From Patescibacteria group bacterium (GTDB lineage: Bacteria; Patescibacteriota; Microgenomatia; 2-02-FULL-39-11), in the NCBI GenBank assembly GCA_023379265.1, contig JAMCUI010000007.1, positions 146,330 to 187,178 of the forward strand: a stretch of DNA of 40,849 bases, written 5' to 3'. The notes beneath the pieces are model-generated. The model was not told the origin of the DNA. It saw only the letters and a program-made list of their open reading frames with translations, and made no database searches. Positions 3,032 through 23,735 of this stretch are shown here, piece after piece. Position 1 is the stretch's first letter. Each line of letters begins with the position of its first letter. A program made the translations under genes and the position numbers.

Positions 3032-3802
3032 CTAAAAATGAGAACTTTCTCTACTCGCCAATTTCTTCAGTCTTGTATCAATATGAAGAAGTGATAAGGA
3101 TAATATTTTACTGTTATCGTAGCCGTTGAGTATTTTTTTTAGGTAGCTCGTGGACTCATTTTTCATTTTTTTCACCTGAGAAATAAGAATCGGCATCACT
3201 CTGACTATATTGTCGACAATTGTAATATCTGCTTTTTGGGCAGTGCGCGACATTGGATTTAGATCAACAGTGATGACCTTTTTGCCCATTTTTTTAAGAG
3301 CCCCCGTTCTGTCTCCGTCTTCAAGAGGGACAAAGATGACGTCAGCTTTTGCCTGGCCAAGGTTATTTATCATTCTGCGGTTACTTTCAATTCCGGGAAT
3401 TTTTCCTGAGTCAGGCAGTAAAATTTTTTTAGCACCATACTTTTTCAAATAGTCAGCAATATTTTTTTCCCGTTTCTTTCCGGCATGAAATATATTTACT
3501 TCAATATGTGCTCCAAGAAGATTTGCCAGTTCTACATATTCTTTAGGAATAAGTATAGCGGTATTGCCGTTTACCGAAAGTATGGGATGCTTTGCTAAAA
3601 TAAGGAGCGCTGCAGAAGATTCAATCGCTTTTCTCGCAAAAGATTCAGTTCTTTCGCCAATAAGATAATCAAAAGTCTCTCCTCGTCCGTGAGCAGTAAG
3701 TCCCTGCAAGGAGGTAATATTTCTTTTGACTCCTTCGCTTAATAAATCACGGTAGTAAAGGGACAGGAAACGCGGATGCGATTTAGGAGTAGAAAGTTTC
3801 AT
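3032..3802 (-). CDS. Archaeal-type 4-phosphopantoate--beta-alanine ligase (phosphopantothenate synthetase, COG1701/DUF137)
   Basis: KSHPRFLSLYYRDLLSEGVK, GLTAHGRGETFDYLIGE, KILLPDSGKIPGIESNRRMI, DVIFVPLEDGDRTGALKKMGKKVITVDLNPMSRTAQ match the family as remembered; adjacent to pantoate kinase. Confidence 0.85.
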   Translation of the reverse strand: MKLSTPKSHPRFLSLYYRDLLSEGVKRNITSLQGLTAHGRGETFDYLIGERTESFARKAIESSAALLILAKHPILSVNGNTAILIPKEYVELANLLGAHIEVNIFHAGKKREKNIADYLKKYGAKKILLPDSGKIPGIESNRRMINNLGQAKADVIFVPLEDGDRTGALKKMGKKVITVDLNPMSRTAQKADITIVDNIVRVMPILISQVKKMKNESTSYLKKILNGYDNSKILSLSLLHIDTRLKKLASRESSHF

Positions 3803-18872: not shown

Positions 18873-19281
18873 ATGAAAAAAATACTTCTGAGAGGACTGG
18901 TTGCAGGATTATCCATGCTTATCGTGTGGTCAAGTAATAAGTTTTTTCTTCCCATCACTCGCAAATGAATACGCTAATCCTAAATTATTCAGGGCATGGT
19001 CAGATCCGTTAATGTCATTATATTTTGTTTATCCGTTTATACTAGGAGTGGTATTGTCTTTCGTTTGGAGTAAAACAAAAAATCTGTTTCAGGGAAAAAG
19101 TGTAGCCGGGAAAGCTGCAAATTTCGGGTTTACTTTTTGGTTTTTGACATCAATTCCAGGAATGTGGATTACATATAGCAGTTTTCCAGTATCGTTCCTT
19201 ATGATTGCCAGTTGGAGTTTCAGTTCTTTGGTGCAGGTGTTAGTTGGTGGCCTGGTAATTTCTAGAATGGGTATTATTTAA
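18873..19281 (+). pseudogene. Small multi-pass membrane protein disrupted by a frameshift at a T6 tract (about 18942-18947)
   Basis: Frame 1 from ATG 18873: MKKILLRGLVAGLSMLIVWSSNKFFLPITRK*. After a 1-nt shift at the T-tract it continues FPSLANEYANPKLFRAWSDPLMSLYFVYPFILGVVLSFVW... to 19281. Confidence 0.65.
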
Positions 19282-20001
19282 GACTTTTTTTGTCCTTTCG
19301 TAGTTAATAAGTGCTAACTTCCATTCCTTTTCTGATAATAAAGGATCCTTTATATTATTTTCTTTGAATGCTTCAATTCTTTCAATGCAAGTACCACACT
19401 TCAGACATGGTTTTTCCCCGCCATTATAACAACTCCAAGTCTTGTCGAAAGGTACGTTTAATTTTAGACCTATTTTTACCAGGTCCGATTTTGTCTTACT
19501 TATAAAAGGGGCGATTATTGTAACCCTCCCAAAGCTCTTATTGCCTAGTCTTAAGGCATGATTTAGGGTTTTAACAAATGGCAGCCGGCAATCCGGATAA
19601 ATGAAATGGTCGCCAGTATGGGCGCCATATATCAAGTAGTCTGACTTATTGGAAATAGCATAACCATAGGCTATTGATAGCATGATGGCATTTCTGTTTG
19701 GTACTACAGTCAACCTCATGTTTTTTTGTGCGTAATGACCTTCAGGAATTTTTTCTCCTTTTTGGGTAAGTGAAGAATTGAGGAGCTTACCGATGGAAGA
19801 GATATTAATAATAGTATTCTCAATACCAAGTGCTTTACTCAATTTTTGGGCATAAATTAATTCCTTAACATGTTTTTGGCCGTAATTAAAGGATAGAGTA
19901 TGGATATTTTGGGATGAAGTTGTTGAACTGGTATAATAAAGTAAAACAGTGCTATCTAAGCCGCCGGATATAATTAAGGTGCATTTTTTATTTTTTGTCA
20001 T
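19240..20001 (-). CDS. queC: 7-cyano-7-deazaguanine (preQ0) synthase QueC
   Basis: LIISGGLDSTVLLYY PP-loop; C-terminal zinc motif CYNGGEKPCLKCGTCIERIEAF; NRNAIMLSIAYGYA. Confidence 0.93.
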   Translation of the reverse strand: MTKNKKCTLIISGGLDSTVLLYYTSSTTSSQNIHTLSFNYGQKHVKELIYAQKLSKALGIENTIINISSIGKLLNSSLTQKGEKIPEGHYAQKNMRLTVVPNRNAIMLSIAYGYAISNKSDYLIYGAHTGDHFIYPDCRLPFVKTLNHALRLGNKSFGRVTIIAPFISKTKSDLVKIGLKLNVPFDKTWSCYNGGEKPCLKCGTCIERIEAFKENNIKDPLLSEKEWKLALINYERTKKVLNNTHSRNYQATN

Positions 20002-20019: not shown

Positions 20020-20865
20020 TTATTTATCTTTCCTTCTAACCTTCCCAAAACTTGAATTTGTAATAATTTCTGGTTGATTATTTGTGGCTTGTGCTATCTT
20101 ACAGAAATGTCTTGCCTTAATTCTAACATTGATACCCGAAACGCCAAGCTCTTTGAATATAGTTTCAGCTATCTGTAATGTTAATTGTTTTTGTTTTTGT
20201 AGCCTGTGAGAATAGGTCTCAACTAGTCTAAATATTGTATCGTTGTTAACATTTTTACCATTTGTGACATAAACTATTGAAACCGTACCAGTAAAGGGCA
20301 GTAAGTGGCAAGTACAAAATGAATAAAACTTAATTTCATTTAAATTTACCGTTTCATTGCAGCTCTTGAAAATGTTATTTTTTATAGTGATGAGGGGATC
20401 TTTCTTATACCCATGGAAAAATTGCTTATATAACCGAGTGATCTGTGCGGGGGTTTCCAGAAGGTCTTTTCTTTTGGGATTTTCGCCTATATATTCGATA
20501 ATCCGTATAATATTATCGCCTATTTCTGCGGATGGTTTTACAGTTTCCCATGGGAAGGTTACCCACTCAGTAGCTTGCGCTTTGATGACATAAGGTATGC
20601 CAGTCGCTTTCTTTGTGACAAGAACACATTTGGTAAAATCTTTATACCTAGCGATTGTCTTCCCAGTATCCAGTATATCGTCTACCACTAGAGTGTTTCT
20701 ACCGGGAGATTCCACGAGTGGAAGTTTTAATCGCTCTGATATTAAAGCTGCAGGAATCAATCCGCCGTTTGGGATACCGAAGACTGATTTGAGAAGTTTA
20801 TTTTTTTGATATCTTTTCACTAGCACGTCAACAGCCATGTCTATATTTGAATAATTTAATTTCAT
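20020..20865 (-). CDS. Fusion: N-terminal phosphoribosyltransferase + C-terminal divergent GTP cyclohydrolase I (FolE)-like domain
   Basis: PRPP motif NTLVVDDILDTGKTI and WVTFPWE; then DLLETPAQITRLYKQFFHGYKKDP, FYSFCTCHLLPFTG, ETYSHRLQKQKQLTLQIAETIFKELG, RHFC. Confidence 0.85.
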   Translation of the reverse strand: MKLNYSNIDMAVDVLVKRYQKNKLLKSVFGIPNGGLIPAALISERLKLPLVESPGRNTLVVDDILDTGKTIARYKDFTKCVLVTKKATGIPYVIKAQATEWVTFPWETVKPSAEIGDNIIRIIEYIGENPKRKDLLETPAQITRLYKQFFHGYKKDPLITIKNNIFKSCNETVNLNEIKFYSFCTCHLLPFTGTVSIVYVTNGKNVNNDTIFRLVETYSHRLQKQKQLTLQIAETIFKELGVSGINVRIKARHFCKIAQATNNQPEIITNSSFGKVRRKDK

Positions 20866-20947
20866 AGCATTCTATTTGGTTGATATGGATAGTAGATATT
20901 GTTAAAATACGGTAGTAAAAAACCCTGTTTCAGTGTGTACATATTAA

Positions 20948-20980
20948 AATATTTGATAATAAAATATCAATATTTGATAA
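20948..20980 (+). promoter_or_regulatory. Candidate operator/promoter between divergent que operons
   Basis: AATATTTGATAA at 20948-20959 and 20969-20980 (21-bp period) plus inverted TATCAA at 20965-20970. Confidence 0.45.
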
Positions 20981-21018
20981 AAGTGGAACAATAATATTTA
21001 TACACCTCAAATATTTTG

Positions 21019-21450
21019 ATGACAATTTCAAAGACTTTAGAAATATCTGTTGGCCACAGGCTACATCTTTATGTCGGTCCCTGCTCCAATTTTCATGGGC
21101 ATAATTATAAGGTAAACATACATATCGATTACTCCCAAGAAGAAAATTTTATTAGAAAAGAAGGATTTTACATTGATTTTGCAAAACTTAAAAAAATAAT
21201 CGTTGAAGCATATGACCATAAATTTCTTATGAGTATGGATGACCAATATGTGACAGATATAAAAAAACTGAATTTACCTGGATTCAAGTTTGTACCTTAT
21301 TCGCCTACAGCTGAAAACATTGCCATTGATATGGCTGGTTTATTGTACAATTTAATAAAGAAAAAAAATGGAAACTTGGAGTCTGTAAAGATTGAGATTT
21401 TCGAAACTTCAAATTCCTCTGTCATTTTCGCGATTCATAATAACAGGTGA
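21019..21450 (+). CDS. queD: 6-carboxy-5,6,7,8-tetrahydropterin synthase QueD
   Basis: CSNFHGHNYKVNIHIDY, FYIDFAKLKKI, YDHKFLM, YSPTAENIA, IEIFETSNSSV. Confidence 0.93.
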   Translation: MTISKTLEISVGHRLHLYVGPCSNFHGHNYKVNIHIDYSQEENFIRKEGFYIDFAKLKKIIVEAYDHKFLMSMDDQYVTDIKKLNLPGFKFVPYSPTAENIAIDMAGLLYNLIKKKNGNLESVKIEIFETSNSSVIFAIHNNR

Positions 21451-21462
21451 TTTTTCATATTT

Positions 21463-22278
21463 ATGTTTATATCAAGAAGAGGTACAAAGAGGAATGCAGT
21501 CTACTCTCCGCAGTCAATTGACGTAAATAGACTGAAGTCTTCTGCCGATGCATTCAAAATGTCCGGAGATGGAGTCTTCCATACAATTCAGGGTGAAGGT
21601 CCGAGGCTTGGTTATCCGATAACTTTCATAAGACTGCATTATTGCAATTTGTCATGTGTCTGGTGTGATACTTCTTATACATGGGATAAAACATTAAAGG
21701 AGTACTGGGGAGAACCGTGGGATTTACCGATTACCGGATTGAATAGGGAAATACAAAAAGCCCAAAAGAAATTCGGAATTCCGAAAAAAAATATTATTCG
21801 TAGAATATGTTTTACGGGAGGCGAGCCTTTATTACAGCAGGATAAGATTGTTAAGTTTCTCAAACAAAACCCTGATTATTATACGGAAATAGAAACAAAT
21901 GGTACGATTATGCCAGATCAATATTTACTCGAAAGGAATAAAAAAGGGTTGTTTTTCTTCAACTGTAGCCCCAAGTTGTCCAATTCACTAAACCATTACA
22001 AATTGAGGTTTAATCCAGGCGTTGTCAAGGCAATATCAAAGACAAATAATCCCGTATTCAAGTTTGTTTGTAAAAGTAGTAAAGATATCAAAGAAGCTTT
22101 GACCGTTTATGGTCAAATTATTCCGCGCAATCTGATTTCGATCATGCCAGAAGGAGTTACAGTAAAGGAGAATATGAAAGTGTATAAAAAAATAATTAGA
22201 ACCGTTGTGCAATATGGTCTGGCGACTCATCCTAGATTGCAGAATATTGCTTTTGGTGGAGCAAAGCGAGGAGTATAG
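21463..22278 (+). CDS. queE: 7-carboxy-7-deazaguanine synthase QueE (radical SAM)
   Basis: FHTIQGEGPRLGYPITFIRLHYCNLSCVWCDTSYTWD (CxxxCxxC), ICFTGGEPLLQ. Confidence 0.93.
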   Translation: MFISRRGTKRNAVYSPQSIDVNRLKSSADAFKMSGDGVFHTIQGEGPRLGYPITFIRLHYCNLSCVWCDTSYTWDKTLKEYWGEPWDLPITGLNREIQKAQKKFGIPKKNIIRRICFTGGEPLLQQDKIVKFLKQNPDYYTEIETNGTIMPDQYLLERNKKGLFFFNCSPKLSNSLNHYKLRFNPGVVKAISKTNNPVFKFVCKSSKDIKEALTVYGQIIPRNLISIMPEGVTVKENMKVYKKIIRTVVQYGLATHPRLQNIAFGGAKRGV

Positions 22279-22281
22279 TAT

Positions 22282-22854
22282 ATGGACTTAAAGAAAACAG
22301 AAAGAATTATCCATCAACTGTTGGTTCAGATTAGTGATGATCCAAACAGTAAAATACTTAAGGAAACACCAAGGCGTGTGTCACAGATGTATAAAGAATC
22401 TTTCTCTGGATACGACAAGGATGCTGTTGCAGTAATGAAGACGTTTCCAAACGAAAGCAATTCATCTTTAGTGGTGGTAGAAGATATAGACTACTATAGC
22501 TATTGTGAACACCATCTGGTGCCATTTTTCGGAAAAGTCCATATTGGTTATGTTCCGAATAAAAAACTTGCTGGTTTGTCAAAATTTGGGAAAGTAGTAG
22601 AAATATTTAGCAAACGGTTGCAGATGCAGGAGCGGATGACAAAACAAATTGCTGACATTATCGAATCTACGCTGCAGCCTAAGGGTGTCATAGTTGTGGT
22701 GGAGGGAATTCATCTTTGTATGGTGATGCGCGGAATAAAGAAAATTAATTCAAAAACAACAACGACAGAAACAAGAGGCGTCTTTGCCAAAAGAGGTTCA
22801 CGTGTAAAAGAGGATTTTTACTACATTTTAAGTCAAAAGATAAAAAGAAAATGA
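22282..22854 (+). CDS. folE: GTP cyclohydrolase I FolE (canonical active site)
   Basis: YYSYCEHHLVPFFGKVHIGYVPNKKLAGLSKFGKVVEIFSKRLQMQERMTKQIAD, HLCMVMRGI. Confidence 0.95.
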   Translation: MDLKKTERIIHQLLVQISDDPNSKILKETPRRVSQMYKESFSGYDKDAVAVMKTFPNESNSSLVVVEDIDYYSYCEHHLVPFFGKVHIGYVPNKKLAGLSKFGKVVEIFSKRLQMQERMTKQIADIIESTLQPKGVIVVVEGIHLCMVMRGIKKINSKTTTTETRGVFAKRGSRVKEDFYYILSQKIKRK

Positions 22855-23735
22855 TTAATATATGTCATATACTTCCGACTGCATACCTGGATAAAATTAC
22901 TTACTTAAAACAGACTAAATTCCACCTGATACTTGCTCATCAAGTTCTTAGAGACAAGGAATATGTCAATTTTTATAGACGACAAAAAGACGCATTTATT
23001 ATCATGGATAATTCCGCATATGAGTATGGAGAAGCACTCGATGATACTGTTTTAGAGAAAGCAATAAAGATTGTTGTGCCCAATGAATTTGTCGTACCTG
23101 ATGTCCTTTTTGATAAGAACAAAACTATCAGTAGATATTATCGATTTATAAACAAATTTCCGATTAGAAATAGATTTCGGTTGATGGCTGTCCCCCAAGG
23201 GAAAACATTCTCCGAATGGCTGGCTTGTTATAATTTTTTCAATGATAAGCCTGAAATTTCCACACTGGGTATTGGTCAGATATATAGCTTCTTAGATCTT
23301 TTTGGTAAGAGAATACCAACTGAGTACGTTAGTGGTAGGGAATATATATTTCATTATTTGCATAGCAAAAATCTAATAAATAGCAAAAAAGACTACCATT
23401 TACTTGGTTTAAGCAGTATTTCACCCATAAAGGAATTGAGAAGGTTGAAAAAATACACTCGTATTCGAAGTGCTGATACGTCGCACGCCTACTTATTTTC
23501 TACAAAAAAATATTTATTTCACCCTCCACAAGCTAATTATCTTAATGACAATCATTTTTCTTGGCGAAAATTATCTCACATGCAAATGAAATCTTTTTTA
23601 AAATATTTTATTTTTCCCCAACACCAAGCTAAACCCAGGTTCGTATTGGATTTTGACGAGCGCTATCAACCTCAGCTAAGTCACGAGATCAAAAAAAACA
23701 TTCTTCTTTTAAGTAAAGCCGGAAAAATAAAATAG
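22851..23735 (+). CDS. TGT-superfamily, DpdA-like 7-deazaguanine DNA/tRNA transglycosylase candidate
   Basis: FHLILAHQVLRDKEYVNFYRRQKDAFIIMDNSAYEYGEAL, FVVPDVLFDKNKTI, RLMAVPQGKTFSEWLACY, STLGIGQIYSF, HLLGLSSISPIKEL, RSADTSHAY resemble phage DpdA/TGT-like proteins; ATGA overlap with folE. Confidence 0.7.
   Translation: MINICHILPTAYLDKITYLKQTKFHLILAHQVLRDKEYVNFYRRQKDAFIIMDNSAYEYGEALDDTVLEKAIKIVVPNEFVVPDVLFDKNKTISRYYRFINKFPIRNRFRLMAVPQGKTFSEWLACYNFFNDKPEISTLGIGQIYSFLDLFGKRIPTEYVSGREYIFHYLHSKNLINSKKDYHLLGLSSISPIKELRRLKKYTRIRSADTSHAYLFSTKKYLFHPPQANYLNDNHFSWRKLSHMQMKSFLKYFIFPQHQAKPRFVLDFDERYQPQLSHEIKKNILLLSKAGKIK

Follow-up and report, generated by a model that had tools for sequence, protein, structure and literature searches.

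A Gpt-type phosphoribosyltransferase joined to a FolE domain that lacks its catalytic residues, in a 7-deazaguanine gene cassette of a small-genome bacterium

The gene at positions 20020 to 20865 of the window (the whole 40,849-nucleotide stretch of DNA that was analyzed) encodes, on the minus strand, a 281-residue protein in which an N-terminal phosphoribosyltransferase (PRT) of the Gpt type is joined to a FolE domain without the catalytic and GTP-binding residues of that family and with its zinc ligands retained, as domain searches and a structure model confirm. The PRT domain, which is compact and missing flexible loop II, occupies residues 1-112 (20530-20865, minus strand), and the linker and catalytically altered FolE (GCH-I) domain occupy residues 113-281 (20020-20529, minus strand). 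The gene stands next to a complete set of genes for 7-deazaguanine DNA modification. Our preferred explanation, to which we assign a probability of roughly 45%, is that the cassette was acquired, that the PRT recycles guanine freed by a DpdA-type enzyme while carried on a FolE-pseudoenzyme scaffold, and that a canonical FolE encoded nearby does the chemistry.

The open reading frame has no internal stops. As the preliminary description had noted, it contains a PRPP-binding motif (VVDDILDTGKT, intact at residues 60-70; 20656-20688, minus strand) followed by a FolE-like domain, an arrangement with which the Pfam match and the XGPRT and GCH-I folds agree. Residues 118-278 match GTP_cyclohydroI (PF01227) with E = 8e-39; the score against the NCBIfam equivalog TIGR00063 is below its cut-off (120.4 versus 181.6 bits). 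A single-sequence search with the PRT half gave PF00156 at E = 3e-5, slightly below the Pfam cut-off, and the NCBIfam XPRT family at E = 3e-10, and the full protein scored 40 bits against a cut-off of 138 for the curated Gpt family NF006613, again below. When a profile of the PRT family was run against the PDB, it retrieved the purine PRT 1vdm (E = 4e-14) and XGPRTs (about 1e-13). AlphaFold2 models, which are of monomers only, had a pLDDT of 92.8 for the full-length fusion and 93.2 for the PRT half. In Foldseek searches the full-length model matched GCH-I structures (TMt about 0.83, E about 1e-17), and the PRT-half model matched XGPRT/Gpt structures best and also the ppGpp-bound PRT-like structure 5vog. 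The matches to GCH-I, by both PF01227 and Foldseek, answer the concern voiced at the outset that the C-terminal part might not be a T-fold FolE.

The active site of the FolE half is extensively altered. In full-protein numbering, the position of the C-E-H-H active-site stretch reads C-T-C-H (C184-T185-C186-H187; 20305-20316, minus strand), with the catalytic His replaced by C186 and the preceding Glu by T185. According to the alignment, VQERLT is replaced by KQKQLT (20179-20196, minus strand), with K226 in place of the guanine-binding Glu, and HxCMxxRG by HFCKIAQA (H253-F-C255-K-I-A-Q-A; 20086-20109, minus strand), in which the His and the zinc-binding Cys remain and the Arg-Gly pair is gone. 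The triphosphate-binding Lys and Arg have become T210 and Q259; these two and the guanine-binding Glu are invariant in 63/63 relatives. In what we take to be the numbering of Escherichia coli FolE, the GTP-binding changes are E152 to K226, K136 to T210, S135 to D209, and R185 to Q259. The zinc ligands C184, H187, and C255 are retained, together with H253. Thus, the protein resembles canonical FolE (PF01227/TIGR00063) in its T-fold domain, zinc ligands, and fold but differs from it in the catalytic His, the guanine-binding Glu, and the triphosphate-binding Lys and Arg. The alignment bears out the preliminary description, which had reported the change of CEHH to CTCH and of an HMCMxMRG-like stretch to HFCKIAQA, with zinc ligands kept and the catalytic His changed to Cys; its proposal of a catalytically altered GCYH-I paralog joined to a PRTase was right, and the GTP-binding positions are lost in addition. 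The CTCH/HFCK set occurred in no second sequence among the fusions that we collected from viral and genome loci.

The two halves differ in how much of their conserved sequence survives. Aligned with 63 viral fusions, the window copy keeps 15/15 of the columns that are at least 85% conserved in the PRT half, whereas it has lost 17 of 42 such columns in the FolE half (Fisher p = 0.0025). The lost columns are spread across the FolE half rather than clustered and include E184, H185, G206, S208, K209, E225, R258, and G259, each present in 63/63 relatives (alignment positions omit Met1 and run one below the full-protein numbers). Because 17 scattered substitutions stand beside a fully intact set of PRT columns, neither chance nor read error accounts for the pattern. 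A sequencing artefact, which the preliminary description had considered together with the existence of CEHH-intact homologues, is ruled out by the open frame, the scattered substitutions, and the confident fold; such homologues do exist, as described below. Compared with its relatives, the protein is shorter at the C-terminus by about 10-16 residues. On this alignment we regard the window copy as a FolE-pseudoenzyme variant of a fusion found in phages, and the pattern of conservation suggests that the PRT half, the putative salvage half, is the part being retained.

A search for proteins combining PRTase and GTP_cyclohydroI domains, as had been proposed, recovered fusions from at least 121 IMG/VR contigs, with CEHH intact in 121/121, and, by tblastn against phages, from about 33 GenBank records spanning at least 80% of the fusion and annotated as GTP cyclohydrolase or not at all. 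A unique new fusion is ruled out by these records. The fusion gene is grouped with queE, queC, queD, and dpdA in VpKK5, NP1, MMDA13, ply2008005c, and Vibrio 1.117, and the IMG/VR fusions are mostly accompanied by que genes and a DpdA-type gene; no second FolE was found in the flanks examined around the latter. The window copy shows the family layout of an N-terminal compact PRT, a WxxFPWE linker, and a C-terminal FolE. It shares with the proteins of Vibrio phage VpKK5 (YP_009126590), Pseudomonas phage NP1 (YP_009285847), and Sphingomonas phage MMDA13 (YP_010719899) the two-domain layout over 84-95% of the length, 33-38% identity, and the que/dpdA neighborhood. In the phage proteins, however, CEHH and the HLCMESRG-type motif are intact, and the examined loci encode no second FolE, whereas in the window the FolE half is dead and folE is also present as a gene of its own. 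Phage 9g (Queuovirinae) has a plain, unfused FolE, and DpdA of the 9g type is 43-70% identical among phages 9g, NP1, MMDA13, and VpKK5. FolE of the immuto/phiST type reads C-S-H-H-H for C-E-H-H (L130:7309-8019, L131:5981-6640, and many IMG/VR loci among L199-L218); not every phage FolE, therefore, has the Glu of this motif.

The PRT-FolE fusion is unnamed in the literature that could be searched, a body that leaves out Cui et al. 2023 (NAR, gkad657); in the paper on MMDA13 the protein is termed FolE. The preliminary statement that no fusion of this kind had been described therefore holds for that literature but not as a claim of novelty, since phage 7-deazaguanine gene sets commonly have this layout. 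It is a common phage layout that has apparently gone unremarked.

A FolE tree joins the window fusion and a viral sequence (L029) as a pair (support 98/86) and places the canonical FolE of the window among stand-alone FolE proteins of related small-genome bacteria (98/81). The end branch of the window fusion measures 1.94 in this tree, against a median of 0.36, and 1.39 in the PRT tree, against a median of 0.77, and given such long branches its exact position is uncertain. By sequence comparison, the window fusion is a decayed member of the phage family, descended from a phage PRT-FolE fusion.

A genome scan revealed PRT-FolE fusions with a dead FolE half in two rumen planctomycete MAGs (L306 and L309); a profile made from the window and L029 sequences recovered the planctomycete fusions, whereas a profile from a PRT-only alignment recovered none. 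The two dead sites read DEST and CERS, with the zinc ligands lost. In L306 and L309, 12/42 and 14/42 of the FolE columns are lost, and 12/15 and 13/15 of the PRT columns are kept; canonical FolE is encoded elsewhere in both genomes. Within the planctomycete family, the fusion is present over most of its length in 9 of 120 genomes: six copies have an intact FolE site, one has an internal stop near the site, and two have lost the site. These chromosomal fusions (L306-L314) thus form a graded series from intact to destroyed. In L310-L314 the PRGG motif of the PRT has become PTSG, and L314 carries an internal stop. No que or dpdA genes were detected at the two examined loci with a dead FolE; a link between salvage and DpdA therefore cannot be drawn in those genomes. 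The two planctomycete decays may be one shared loss, and we consider the planctomycete dead FolE, as read from these alignments, to be an independent parallel to the decay in the window.

We turn now to the gene neighborhood. Just 18 bases downstream of the fusion, on the same strand, lies queC (19240-20001, minus strand). A divergent intergenic region (20866-21015) separates this pair from a plus-strand row consisting of queD (21016-21450, identified by domain searches), queE (21463-22278; a radical SAM protein with a CxxxCxxC-type motif), a canonical, CPR-like folE (22282-22854; CEHH and HLCMVMRG intact) located 1.4 kb from the fusion, and a gene for a DpdA-like DNA guanine transglycosylase of the Flavobacterium immuto/Cellulophaga phiST type (22851-23735). 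The gene set for 7-deazaguanine DNA modification (folE, queD, queE, queC, and a DpdA-type gene) is thus complete in the window. The transglycosylase is 29% identical to DpdA of Flavobacterium phage immuto and 25% identical to its counterpart in Cellulophaga phage phiST; searches of Pfam and NCBIfam gave no match to it, and its matches in PHROG were weak. FolE, QueD, QueE, QueC, and a DpdA-type transglycosylase are common to the window and to the phage 7-deazaguanine DNA-modification systems (Hutinet et al. 2019, PMC6884629). The window differs from those systems in belonging to a small-genome bacterium, in its chromosomal-type surroundings, and in encoding two FolE-type proteins.

The window forms the end of a 187-kb contig; the genome to which it belongs has 1.53 Mb, and the genomes of its relatives have 0.5-1.7 Mb. 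The cassette is flanked by genes of a chromosomal type (primase, sigma-70, P-type ATPase, DinB, and amylase), and its GC content is 0.31-0.36 as against 0.38-0.41 in most of the flanks. The fusion was found neither in 14 genomes of the same family nor among 384 genomes of the class and 384 of the phylum (overlapping samples); the DpdA-like transglycosylase was missing from the same 14 genomes and had one distant relative in the class sample. From its composition and distribution, the cassette looks horizontally acquired. A prophage location is unsupported, given the chromosomal-type flanks, the absence of the cassette from the 14 same-family genomes, and the lower GC content. Nor did the fusion have a match in PADLOC as part of a defence system. 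Elsewhere in the window, 3032-3802 encodes a PF02006 phosphopantothenate synthetase, an archaeal-type enzyme, in a host that has a bacterial primase and sigma-70.

The genome is 93.7% complete, which makes gene absences soft. It has a gene for tRNA-guanine transglycosylase (TGT; L148:1513-2658), and at this completeness QueA, QueF, and dihydropteroate synthase had no match above cut-off. Queuosine synthesis for tRNA is accordingly a weak candidate, and a folate role was set aside: with TGT and without QueA, QueF, or dihydropteroate synthase, the gene set is explained by neither folate nor full queuosine synthesis. A search of the same 93.7%-complete genome with the PF00156 profile found no HGPRT/Gpt-like gene elsewhere.

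The compact PRT retains the purine-site residues K85, W101, and PWE 105-107 in full-protein numbering (K84, W100, and PWE 104-106 without Met1), which are conserved throughout the family. Its PRGG loop reads PNGG, with Asn for Arg at a position that is variable in the family. Flexible loop II is missing from nearly all compact PRTs: the spacing from GG to DD has a mode of 25, as compared to 51 in the full-length relative L006, and alignment to 1vdm and 5xtk shows a gap at loop II, with about 25 residues absent. The window PRT is therefore like Gpt (xanthine-guanine PRT) in its PRPP motif, its Lys, Trp, and PWE base-site positions, and its fold, and unlike it in lacking about 25 residues of loop II, in having PNGG for PRGG, and in being fused to FolE. 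In type I PRTs the flexible loop closes the active site. Since it is absent, the activity of the compact PRT may be poor or nil, which keeps alive a reading of the domain as a sensor or regulator.

The compact PRT also exists apart from FolE. Phage immuto and many IMG/VR contigs that carry que/dpd genes encode it as an unfused protein close to folE; a WWE3 (CPR) MAG (L223:5245-9897) has it as a separate gene in the order dpdA-PRT-queE-queD-folE-queC, and it occurs unfused in Campylobacter phage CP220 as well. In 52/75 genome loci its gene directly precedes that of a nucleoside 2-deoxyribosyltransferase (PF05014, E = 8e-29; neighbor scored by phmmer), although these loci are mostly from Prochlorococcus and Synechococcus and are not independent, most being close Prochlorococcus relatives. 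One such locus is L255:7944-8839, to which 51 others are similar. DpdA and nucleoside deoxyribosyltransferase are both base-exchange enzymes that free a base. In the class of the window bacterium, another locus (L141:9876-13629) holds a relative of the immuto-type DpdA followed by a kinase-like 525-residue ORF, a NUDIX-like ORF, and a QueC-like ORF; folE, queD, and queE were not seen within the 20 kb examined.

How might the fusion function? The canonical FolE, QueD, QueE, and QueC would convert GTP to preQ0, and the DpdA-like enzyme would put preQ0 into DNA in place of guanine, which would be set free. Once a separate FolE was available, the FolE half of the fusion could have lost GTP cyclohydrolase activity and persisted as a folded, probably zinc-bearing, oligomeric T-fold scaffold. 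The PRT half would be the selected part, converting the freed purine base and PRPP to a nucleotide (guanine to GMP) and so returning it to the GTP pool. Three elements of this model are inferred: an active PRT, guanine as the substrate of that PRT, and a scaffold role for the FolE half. Guanine salvage had been suggested in the preliminary description; it gains from the occurrence of the compact PRT near folE in DpdA phages and upstream of deoxyribosyltransferase in picocyanobacteria, that is, from its recurrence beside base-exchanging enzymes, and it is weakened by the absence of the flexible loop of Gpt. Also in its favor are the retained conserved residues of the PRT, the complete adjacent pathway, the descent from a phage fusion, a FolE half stripped of its catalytic residues, the parallel decay in planctomycetes, the XGPRT-like fold, and a host in which PF00156 detects no other HGPRT/Gpt-like gene. 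Against it, beyond loop II, are Asn for the Arg of PRGG in the window, the non-independence of the 52/75 loci, the mostly intact FolE half of the planctomycete fusions, and the change of PRGG to PTSG in L310-L314. All told, the model is plausible from the sequences.

Missing loop II is also the starting point for a regulatory reading, which we judge unlikely. Here the compact PRT would be a sensor of PRPP, GMP, or ppGpp, and mixed decamers built from the inactive FolE half and canonical FolE would tune the flow of GTP into preQ0. The well-folded model of the window FolE half with its zinc ligands, the canonical FolE encoded in each genome that has a dead half, and the Foldseek match to ppGpp-bound 5vog are all in keeping with it. 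The planctomycete copies, however, have lost the zinc ligands, as if the FolE half were decaying there rather than specialized; FolE-less compact PRTs lie beside deoxyribosyltransferase, where regulation of FolE would be useless; and co-assembly in the window would have to be new, since its canonical FolE and its fusion come from different clades. The loss of planctomycete zinc sites bears as well on the idea that a new catalytic activity has arisen at the zinc site of the FolE half, to which we give very little credence: the zinc ligands and H253 are kept and Cys186 and Lys226 have been added, but the CTCH/HFCK set was found in no second sequence and the dead planctomycete copies have lost the zinc site.

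That the fusion is simply a leftover, made redundant by the second folE and now drifting, seems to us rather improbable. It would fit the long FolE branch (1.94 versus a median of 0.36), the C-terminus shortened by some 10-16 residues, and the confinement of the fusion to one genome among those sampled in the class and phylum. Yet the frame is open, the PRT columns are kept 15/15 while 17/42 are lost from FolE, all zinc ligands remain, the structure model is of high confidence, and planctomycetes show a similar pattern. We think it quite improbable, finally, that the PRT half ribosylates a 7-deazaguanine base (CDG or preQ0) to a 7-deaza nucleotide in the manner of TubE in the tubercidin pathway. 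TubE, a PRT of the purine type encoded together with FolE, QueD, and QueE, uses PRPP and CDG as substrates (PMC6112128), and the window PRT lies within a FolE-QueD-QueE-QueC set, a comparison at the level of enzyme type and gene content; TubE (194 residues) is unfused and belongs to a nucleoside-antibiotic pathway. Such a nucleotide would be unneeded by DpdA, which inserts the base by exchange; kinase, reductase, and UbiD-type genes of the tubercidin type were not seen in the cassette; and the compact PRT also occurs beside deoxyribosyltransferases outside que genes.

Returning to guanine salvage, we tentatively extend it to the family as a whole: the compact, loop-less Gpt-type PRT could be an unrecognized guanine-recycling component of phage and bacterial 7-deazaguanine DNA modification, fused to FolE in some phages, separate near folE in others, and carried on a FolE pseudoenzyme in the window bacterium. 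In base-exchange phages one free guanine is released per exchange, and one GTP is spent per modified base. A PRT that is linked to FolE and recurs next to enzymes of base exchange makes the fate of this guanine testable. Annotations of these phage proteins as GTP cyclohydrolases conceal a second domain, and some of the cellular copies of the fusion cannot be cyclohydrolases. The window and planctomycete copies, in which FolE activity appears to have been removed and the PRT kept, would serve as natural experiments, pointing to a PRT half with a function of its own.
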